Source: an uncultured Flavobacteriaceae bacterium (GTDB lineage Bacteria > Bacteroidota > Bacteroidia > Flavobacteriales > Flavobacteriaceae). Taken from it: a DNA stretch of 64,000 bases. The notes under the pieces are model-generated. The model was not told the DNA's origin, did no database searches, and was given only the letters and a program-made list of their open reading frames with translations. The DNA lies in the NCBI GenBank assembly GCA_947502975.1, contig CANNBV010000001.1:1-64000 (forward strand), read 5' to 3'. Of the stretch, positions 13,828 to 45,490 are shown one piece after another (the stretch's first letter is position 1; every line of letters begins with the position of its first letter). A program made the translations under genes and the position numbers.

Positions 13828-13913
13828 GGGCGCTACCCCGCTTAAGAGCGTGGTCGGGCTATCCGTTACAAGTCCTCGCTGCGCTGTGGGCTTTCCACTA
13901 CTATCCCTAGCGC
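13828..13913 (+). repeat. Family-1 dispersed intergenic repeat, copy A (ends GCGCTA/TAGCGC)
   Basis: The element runs from GGGCGCTACCCC to ATCCCTAGCGC with an internal GGTCGGGCTATCC block. It is far more GC-rich than its surroundings. Three other copies lie in this window (27421-27540 minus, 31028-31158, 45356-45443). The ends are complementary. In this copy both ends differ from the others at the paired position (GCGCTA/TAGCGC against GCGTTA/TAACGC). No credible coding capacity is seen. Confidence 0.75.
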
Positions 13914-27420: not shown

Positions 27421-27540
27421 GCGTTAAGGATTGAACGGCATATTTGAAATCCCCGACGAAGGAGGGATTGAGTAGTGAAAGCCTGACCCGAGCGAGCTTG
27501 TTTCTTGAAATGGTTGTATGTAACATCGAGGGTAACGCCC
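27421..27540 (-). repeat. Family-1 dispersed intergenic repeat, copy B
   Basis: On the minus strand the element reads GGGCGTTACCC ... GGGTCAGGCTTTC ... TCAATCCTTAACGC, matching copies A, C and D at both ends and in the middle block. It lies between the convergent small lipoprotein and EnvC-like genes. A family-2 repeat (27544-27588) abuts it directly. Confidence 0.75.
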
Positions 27541-27543
27541 AAC

Positions 27544-27588
27544 TTCTCGATACGATTCCTCATGCTTCGAAATCACTCGAAGTGACTG
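27544..27588. repeat. Family-2 repeat, copy 1 (TTCTCGATAC...CATGCTTC...CACTCGAA)
   Basis: TTCTCGATACGATTCCTCAT is followed by GCTTCG, AAA and CACTCGAAGTGACTG. A closely similar sequence is found inside family-1 copy C at 31082-31128. It adjoins family-1 copy B with three bases between. Confidence 0.6.
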
Positions 27589-31027: not shown

Positions 31028-31158
31028 GGGCGTTACCCTCCTTAGGTCGGGTCGGGCTTTCCACTATATCTTTTTTATGTGTTCTCGATACATTTTGTTC
31101 ATGCTTCACAAAACACTCGAACAGACATAAAAAAGGATGCCGCTGCAATCCCTAACGC
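31028..31158 (+). repeat. Family-1 dispersed intergenic repeat, copy C, carrying a family-2 repeat inside
   Basis: It runs from GGGCGTTACCC (31028-31038) through GGTCGGGCTTTCC to CTGCAATCCCTAACGC (31143-31158). The interior contains an additional stem, ATCTTTTTTATGT against ACATAAAAAAGGAT. This encloses a family-2 repeat (31082-31128) very like 27544-27588, so the element is composite. Confidence 0.75.
31082..31128. repeat. Family-2 repeat, copy 2, nested in family-1 copy C
   Basis: TTCTCGATACATT, TTCATGCTTC, AAAACACTCGAA and CAGACAT follow in the same order as in the copy at 27544-27588, with a few insertions and substitutions. Confidence 0.55.
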
Positions 31159-31212
31159 AGTCCTTGCTATATTCAAAAATAGCTATTCATTTTAAAAAAT
31201 AGCAACTTTGGT

Positions 31213-45074: not shown

Positions 45075-45355
45075 TACCTCTTGGTTTGGTGTAATAGATA
45101 ACTACAAACTCTCACAAATAGTATATAACACCACTTCTAATTTGAAATTACCTTAATAAAACGTTCTTTTTCCCTTTCTATTTCAGAATAAAATGAAACC
45201 GTAGCTAAACCTATGCTTAAATTTTCTTCTTCATATAAAGAAAAAAATCATCATTTTATTTTACAATAATTTCAAACAAGAACTGGTATAAGTGGGTAAA
45301 AATAAACATCTTTTTCGATTAAGCTATAAAATCACTGCATTTTTGAAGTGTTTTT
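45075..45355. other. AT-rich intergenic region upstream of sprE
   Basis: Probably contains the sprE promoter, but no full TAnnTTTG box was found (TACTATTTG near 45121 has one extra base). No ORF or repeat is seen before the family-1 element at 45356. Confidence 0.4.
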
Positions 45356-45443
45356 GGGCGTTACCCTAAAGGGTCGGGCTTTCCGTTAATAGTTTTGGCT
45401 CGATGCGCGCCTCGCCAAAAGCTGCCACTGCAATCCCTAACGC
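45356..45443 (+). repeat. Family-1 dispersed intergenic repeat, copy D
   Basis: GGGCGTTACCC ... GGGTCGGGCTTTCC ... CTGCAATCCCTAACGC. The interior holds AGTTTTGGC and GCCAAAAGCT, which pair around a GC-rich loop. It separates sprE from the unknown membrane protein gene. Confidence 0.75.
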
Positions 45444-45490
45444 GGGATACTTTGCTGGCTTTTTAGCTAATACAATAGGATTAGTACATG

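Follow-up and report, generated by a model that had tools for sequence, protein, structure and literature searches.

The window, that is, the whole stretch of 64,000 nucleotides analysed here (positions 1 to 64,000 of contig CANNBV010000001.1, assembly GCA_947502975.1, an uncultured Flavobacteriaceae bacterium designated G000), contains four copies of a short dispersed element, which were found at the places and on the strands given by the first-pass annotation and are numbered 1 to 4 (Table 1). Each of them reads about TTT-GGGCGTTACC, hairpin 1, TCGGGCTWTC, hairpin 2, CNATCCCTAACGC, and tail. The conserved frame can be written as TTTGGGCGTTACC - hairpin 1 - TCGGGCTWTC - hairpin 2 - CAATCCCTAACGC - tail, where the tail is about YTGCYAA in half of the copies, and the core of the element measures about 65–160 nt in G000. 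Shared blocks at both ends and in the centre had been described previously; three short blocks are indeed common to the four copies, but the central one is exact in copies 3 and 4 only and reads GGTCGGGCTATCC in copy 1 and GGTCAGGCTTTCA in copy 2. The left-end block GGGCGTTACCC is exact in three window copies, copy 1 having GGGCGCTACCC instead, and the right-end block is ATCCCTAACGC in copies 3 and 4, ATCCCTAGCGC in copy 1, and ATCCTTAACGC in copy 2. As had been claimed, all four copies sit between crude ORFs and are more GC-rich than their surroundings (0.62, 0.48, 0.45, and 0.57 for copies 1–4 against 0.29, 0.34, 0.29, and 0.28 in the 200-nt flanks), and the GC content of the element exceeded that of its own flanks in 111 of 112 copies of G000.

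Single blocks were sought in the window with two mismatches allowed, and the counts were compared with those in 100 shuffles. CGGGCTTTCC gave 25 matches (shuffle mean 18.8, reached by 11 shuffles), GGGCGTTACCC gave 7 (mean 3.2, reached by 5), and ATCCCTAACGC gave 18 (mean 7.4, reached by none). The over-representation of the blocks taken singly ranges from weak to clear, and their ordered combination is far from chance, as measured by the covariance model R1. This model was built from 15 genome copies including window copies 1 and 4, with copy 2 left out, and its E-values (Table 1) are rough.

Table 1. Element copies of the window, their parts, and model scores (hairpin 2 subtypes S2–S4 are labels of this analysis)
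Feature	Position	Strand	Remarks
Element copy 1	13828..13913	+	R1 85.7 bits, E 2.8e-21; RF01705 35.5 bits on - strand (cut-off 42)
Copy 1 left end GGGCGCTACC	13828-13837	+	
Copy 1 hairpin 1	about 13835-13854	+	
Copy 1 core 1 TCGGGCTATCC	13854-13864	+	
Copy 1 hairpin 2	about 13865-13900	+	subtype S3
Copy 1 core 2 CTATCCCTAGCGC	13901-13913	+	
Copy 1 3' tail ACATGTCCGCCAA	13914..13926	+	family tail motif
Element copy 2	27421..27540	-	long hairpin 1, hairpin 2 subtype S4; R1 44.1 bits, E 2.7e-9; no RF01705 match (up to E 10)
Palindromic stretch ending CGTATCGAGAAGTT	27541..27588	-	directly before copy 2 left end
Element copy 3	31028..31158	+	R1 85.9 bits, E 2.6e-21
Copy 3 left end	31028-31037	+	
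Copy 3 hairpin 1	about 31035-31052	+	
Copy 3 core 1	31052-31062	+	
Copy 3 hairpin 2	31063-31145	+	long, Flavo-1 subtype
Copy 3 core 2 CAATCCCTAACGC	31146-31158	+	
Rfam RF01705 Flavo-1 match over copy 3	31046..31172	-	55 bits, gathering score 42
Element copy 4	45356..45443	+	R1 95.6 bits, E 4e-24; RF01705 36.8 bits on - strand, below cut-off
Copy 4 left end	45356-45365	+	
Copy 4 hairpin 1 ACCCTAAAGGGT	45363-45374	+	
Copy 4 core 1	45374-45384	+	
Copy 4 hairpin 2	45385-45430	+	subtype S2
Copy 4 core 2	45431-45443	+	
Copy 4 3' tail GGGATACTTTGCTGG	45444..45458	+	

Several other sequences adjoin or interrupt the element. A sequence ending GTAT[CT]GAGAAGTT abuts the left end of six copies (copy 2 and those in L028, L096, L123, L124, and L148:1530), as if two repeats travelled or inserted together. 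The stretch just 5′ of copy 4 (45125-45294) occurs in many copies of 78–83% identity in the related genome G004 and singly in G003 and G007, and it is another repeat family, separate from the element. In G007 (L249 7685-7874), G002 (L227 288-469), and G000 (L148 11489-11684), core 1 and hairpin 2 are separated by an inserted module that starts with TTTACTCATTG, and an extra palindrome, about CTGCCTGCCGGCAGGCAG, lies within core 1 in G008 and G007 orthologues (L233 285-476 and L239 72-221).

The ends GCGTT/AACGC (P1) and the bases GGG/CCC (P2) pair with hairpin 1 between them, so that one strand can fold as a three-way junction with two hairpins. The complementarity of the ends noticed in the window holds generally, P1 being paired in 99.5% of cells (114 rows) over a length of only 5–6 bp. 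The double end change of copy 1 (GCGCTA/TAGCGC), from which selection for pairing had been suspected, was likewise borne out as part of a covariation running through the whole element, and the window holds a second compensation, since P2 of copy 2 consists of TCAGGC with ATCCTT. In a structure-free MAFFT alignment of 15 copies, 98.2% of cells were paired, a fraction that leans toward the structure because the latter was drawn from the same 15 sequences, and 45–57% when the arms were slid by 1–3 columns. The shuffles are the fairer measure: both-side changes were present at 13 of the 22 pairs, amounting to 29 cells compared with 6.6 (sd 2.0) in shuffled data, a number reached by none of 500 shuffles. 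The 114 distinct rows, whose alignment was fitted to the structure, contained 222 both-side cells versus 53.2 in shuffles.

R1 found at least 140 places in G000 when the best 150 of 1,644 candidates were scored; considering that limit and that window copy 2 is outside the 140, this number is a lower bound. Matches were present in 28 of 40 genomes, G000 included, and each of the other 11 members of the genus had 13 to 85 of them (best 88 candidates scored per genome). The first-pass annotation had proposed a search of the family with a covariance model, and R1 matched 108 of 149 family genomes at E ≤ 1e-8 (best 23 candidates scored per genome, stricter filters). At the level of the phylum, 26 of 198 genomes had a match at the same threshold (best 17 candidates per genome, stricter filters). 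Some contigs of relatives start at a copy (G007:C45 at its start, G003:C2:66-250, and G008:C18:55-175), thus the repeat may limit short-read assembly.

The family had been thought to be nameless, which proved incorrect: Rfam RF01705 (Flavo-1) covers one subtype of it, on the opposite strand. In the window, the RF01705 cut-off of 42 bits was reached at copy 3, copies 1 and 4 scored below it, and copy 2 gave no match (Table 1), while in G000 at least 56 places matched at E ≤ 0.001 and at least 35 exceeded the cut-off (best 150 of 901 candidates scored). When Rfam was run on the window, two RAYT loci, and 13 phage loci, Flavo-1 alone reached its cut-off; further hits in the window were due to chance. 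The RF01705 model has the same inner stem with symmetric internal loops as the repeat; however, its 76 positions lack the P1 stem, hairpin 1, and the tail, and it fits one hairpin 2 subtype. We infer that Flavo-1 is one hairpin 2 subtype of the repeat rather than a separate sRNA gene, as which RF01705 is filed in Rfam. In the table of Weinberg et al. (2010; PMC2864571) Flavo-1 is entered as RNA "y" and cis-reg "n", and it is listed there as a candidate RNA. The passages on Flavo-1 in a 2021 transcriptome study (Guerin et al., PMC9723704) describe it as widespread in Flavobacteriaceae, with hits in sense and antisense orientation to transcribed regions alike and many others elsewhere; several 5′ transcribed regions coincided with hits, and no clue to the function of Flavo-1 could be drawn in those passages. 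In the open-licence PMC literature, no paper describing hairpin exchange in the Flavo-1 repeat was found, and the papers carrying any of five motif strings of the repeat look unrelated by title among the matches listed.

The genomic context was examined in 112 distinct G000 copies from the fetched loci, 4 of the 116 matches having been dropped as duplicates or fragments. According to crude gene calls, 28 copies lay between convergent, 17 between divergent, and 56 between co-directional genes, while 11 overlapped an ORF of at least 80 aa (4 of the 112 when ORFs of at least 100 aa were considered). All gaps of at least 40 nt in the same loci (n = 219) comprised 40 convergent, 51 divergent, and 128 co-directional ones, thus convergent gaps are somewhat over-represented among the copies. 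Beside co-directional genes, 27 copies had the same strand as the genes and 29 the opposite one. Where the left end faced a gene end, the median distance was 27 nt (≤30 nt in 34 of 59 cases), compared with 91.5 nt for the right end (≤30 nt in 14 of 62). T occupied positions −5 to −3 of the left flank in 88–96% of the copies, the left foot before P1 being TTTGG in most of them. The motif YHGCYR was present in the right flank of 57 of the 112 copies, compared with 8.0 after mononucleotide shuffling and 1 for the left flank when mirrored, and in 46 of these 57 it started at the 7th or 9th base. The possibility that the element is an intrinsic terminator was rejected, as the hairpin is not directly followed by a T-run, G and A predominating at +1 to +3 of the 3′ flank; for the opposite strand, the flank reads about AAATAAA.

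If the RNA of one strand were under selection, G-U should be the prevailing one-sided state. In helices 1–4 of the 112 copies, 7 G-T and 15 A-C one-sided cells were counted on the strand on which copy 1 is read (+), both being rare beside the 116 both-side cells (114 rows). The excess of A-C corresponds to G-U on the Flavo-1 strand, which hints weakly at an RNA on that strand. No clear preference for either strand emerged and the orientations are even, which together weakly favour a DNA structure.

To follow single sites between species, three stretches of G000 holding 10 copies were used for orthologue search against 12 genomes of the genus, and R1 was run on 98 of the resulting loci, among which were eight from the first search and 33 further stretches. 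The 43 matches represented 34 distinct copies, two of which were unassignable to a site and left out, while the other 32 belonged to 8 of the 10 loci and to 8 relatives. These are 32 of 88 possible orthologous copies (11 relatives), the remainder being absent, decayed, or outside coverage; decayed remnants were visible by eye in relatives at the site of copy 4. The frame proved to be inherited: the 250-nt flanks ranked the G000 orthologue first among the 112 copies in 32 of 32 cases, and orientation, judged by eye, agreed in all of them. The hairpins behaved otherwise. Hairpin 2 ranked its own orthologue first in 1 of 32 cases, with a median identity of 0.55 to the orthologue versus 0.90 to the best of the 112 copies. 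Its median rank was 34 where chance would give 56, which means that hairpin 2 still preserves some descent. Hairpin 1 ranked its own orthologue first, ties included, in 10 of the 32.

Individual sites were compared by eye or after automatic splitting; as the splitting erred in several rows, only those of its rows that agree with the raw letters were used, and the argument rests on the hairpin and flank rankings. Among seven species, no two had the same hairpin pair at the site of copy 3 (by eye). At the site of copy 4, hairpin 1 (CTAAAG) was common to G000, G002, and G006, whereas hairpin 2 of G000 differed from that of G002 and G006, and at another site (C3:578272) six of seven species had the same hairpin 2 type with several hairpin 1 types. 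Thus, while the sites stay fixed, hairpins resembling those of other copies take the place of hairpin 2 and, in many cases, of hairpin 1, and the two change separately, which is beyond what the four window copies could reveal. Among the 112 G000 copies, the type of hairpin 1 was not detectably associated with that of hairpin 2, either with the first typing, in which 23 of the 112 hairpins 1 fell into "other" (mutual information 0.311 versus 0.251, sd 0.052, p 0.124), or with a second one (0.311 versus 0.267, p 0.194); the typing is crude, and the lack of a detected association is no proof that the hairpins are independent. Subtype S5 stood out, as six of its seven copies carry a hairpin 1 of the CACAAGG type. 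Hairpins were mixed as in G000 also in G084, a single-contig genome with 60 R1 matches (36 of them in the 35 loci examined, giving 35 distinct rows), where some stems had the base of one type and the distal part of another on both arms (by eye). A G003 copy (L281 1-213) has a hairpin 2 with an S4 base and a tip of the long Flavo-1 type, again on both arms (by eye).

Outside the family, a search with one 95-nt copy gave no match in plasmids and matched one phage record, OM869667.1, a 6,278-nt Microviridae genome, in which the full element lies in an unannotated stretch. Pattern scans of IMG/VR yielded 5, 7, 0, and 15 stretches, together 18 loci, which may represent fewer phages because L396 equals L399 and L407 equals L413 in element sequence. 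R1 matched at E ≤ 0.01 in all 18 loci and in the OM869667.1 stretch (20 matches, 19 sources), those in L407, L413, and the second place in L412 being marginal (0.002–0.004). Pfam typing, which covered three contigs, detected microvirus capsid and Rep in L400, a terminase in L407, and a portal in L413; of the phage contigs with full elements, two are microviruses. The GC content of the matches raised the idea that many of these phage contigs are GC-rich, which was rejected as contig GC was 0.34–0.61. When 84,980 species genomes were scanned with a pattern avoiding the common flavobacterial subtypes, 8 stretches were obtained, four from Selenomonas and four from Bacteroidota, all with an R1 match; an Algibacter locus scored 108 bits. 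Selenomonas ruminantium is placed in Bacillota, and two Selenomonas genomes had 2 and 3 matches. In the phage and Selenomonas elements the three blocks are nearly letter-identical, while the hairpins are different. These occurrences suggest that phages carry the element between hosts.

The first-pass annotation had likened the element to REP or MITE repeats and looked toward a REP-associated transposase (TnpA-REP). The likeness holds insofar as the repeat is dispersed, intergenic, GC-rich, and covarying, but a link to TnpA-REP was not supported. G000 has two Y1_Tnp genes that are RAYT-like by their motifs (NHVH and SHVH; YIHQNP and YIHNNP; by eye), at C4:33021 (L031 1000-2400) and C2:959682 (L032 1100-2000). 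They are flanked by palindromes of their own, different from the element (e.g., TGGCGCTAGT...ACTAGTGCCA), and neither Flavo-1 nor R1 matched in their loci. Of 64 listed Y1_Tnp matches, 30 loci were fetched, and none of these had a copy at a distance of up to about 1.5 kb; no recombinase or transposase tied to the repeat was found. Like REP, BIME, and REPIN sequences, the element is intergenic, palindromic, and of high copy number; in contrast to REPs, it lacks the GT[AG]G foot, has modular hairpins and cores of about 65–160 nt, and was not found beside the Y1_Tnp genes examined. The sections of PMC6006769 dealing with these repeats describe the REP foot as a GT[AG]G tetranucleotide, exempt RAYT subclass 2.6, and place this subclass in Bacteroidetes, with genes flanked by atypical structures that have copies elsewhere.

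With regard to MITEs, the tests were weak ones. The element shares several properties with them, being short, non-coding, and dispersed with complementary ends, but no target duplication was seen and no element of matching ends was found. MITEs are in general short, non-coding, dispersed sequences with complementary ends. Neither a clean empty site nor a target duplication was recovered at window sites 2–4 and at C3:564845, the flanks being too diverged; the C3:564845 copy had no orthologue in the loci scanned and no usable junction for the same reason. Inspection by eye likewise revealed no target duplication in the flanks of the copies. An autonomous partner with the same ends was sought in 366 kb of G000 sequence chosen around copies, where 69 left ends were paired and 2 were called solo, one of them a diverged intact copy, leaving no convincing solo end. 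Integron attC sites have the boxes RYYYAAC ... GTTRRRY. The element is like them in one respect, that is, conserved paired ends and variable terminal structures folded from one strand, but its ends GCGTTACC ... ATCCCTAACGC do not fit these boxes (by eye), and an attC origin was rejected.

Taken together, we favour, with some reserve, the reading that the element is a dispersed hairpin-forming DNA repeat, whose frame stays fixed while copies exchange their hairpins with one another, ectopic gene conversion being the probable way. An extruded hairpin would stall or be cut during replication and would be re-copied from another of the 100+ copies via the short conserved blocks (by ectopic gene conversion or template switching); as the whole hairpin would be copied at once, the arms would stay paired. 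The paired form would act mainly as DNA, either as a cruciform or as a single strand, the element would spread as a REP-like mobile repeat, also through phages, and as a structure close to gene ends it may be either tolerated or of slight benefit. No conversion tracts were seen among the copies; against conversion speak the conserved blocks of about 11–13 bases, which are short for RecA, and a model of pure hairpin conversion does not need the conserved left TTT and the tail. More speculatively, and at rather long odds, the element may be a mobile DNA frame crossing phyla, with its junction as the target of a putative enzyme, nuclease or recombinase, by which entire hairpins pass from copy to copy and also between chromosomes and phages, those with ssDNA genomes among them. 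If such a dedicated exchange existed, hairpins would be cassettes whose spread does not depend on the sites in which they reside.

The strongest competitor of the conversion reading, which we regard as possible but distinctly less probable than it, is a structured RNA, that is, Flavo-1 as catalogued, acting as a stable sRNA or as a 3′-UTR structure that protects or processes mRNAs and has free hairpin tips. The sRNA entry in Rfam, the tabulation by Weinberg et al., the proximity of the left end to gene ends, and the covariation are in its favour, but it is opposed by the even orientation beside co-directional genes, by G-U not exceeding A-C on the strand on which copy 1 is read (the reverse excess being small), by the indifference to sense and antisense and the many hits outside transcribed regions described in the Flavo-1 passages of Guerin et al., and by the at least 140 copies in G000. 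A non-autonomous transposon of REP/REPIN or MITE type, moved for instance by TnpA-REP with the same enzyme exchanging the hairpins, seems unlikely, slightly more so than the dedicated exchange above. High copy number, complementary ends, the left TTT with the tail motif, and the presence in ssDNA phages would suit it, as would G017, which has the most Y1_Tnp matches (14) together with 34 elements. Yet G003, G011, G014, G016, and G025 have 20–77 element matches and no Y1_Tnp hit (two of these genomes are 80 and 90% complete), G004 and G005 have strong Y1_Tnp hits and just 13 elements each, and the Y1_Tnp loci, the different palindromes beside the RAYT-like genes of G000, and the near lack of solo ends around copies point the same way.

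Two further readings would do away with exchange altogether. Certain hot spots could repeatedly receive whole new elements in an unchanged orientation, with the conserved TTT and tail as the target sequence; this is improbable in view of the site of copy 4 and of C3:578272, where one hairpin is common to several species and the other is not, and of the orientation agreeing in every orthologous pair. It is hardly credible that the mosaics are assembly chimeras of short-read drafts. The 36 contigs of G000, and those contigs of relatives that start with a copy, would suit such chimeras, but the same kind of mosaic, judged by eye, is seen in G084, one contig of 3.3 Mb, which argues against them.

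Part of this very common bacterial repeat has already been catalogued as Flavo-1 (RF01705), and what is unusual is that the frame stays while the hairpins get replaced. If Flavo-1 is one among the hairpins of a modular DNA repeat, it becomes understandable that its hits are both sense and antisense. Fast hairpin replacement at fixed sites implies that covariation may spread by exchange between copies, which bears on the calling of structured RNAs from genomes. Its occurrence in microviruses and in two phyla indicates how the element may spread, and the modular view makes laboratory hairpin swapping, RecA dependence, and the need for transcription of either strand accessible to experiments.
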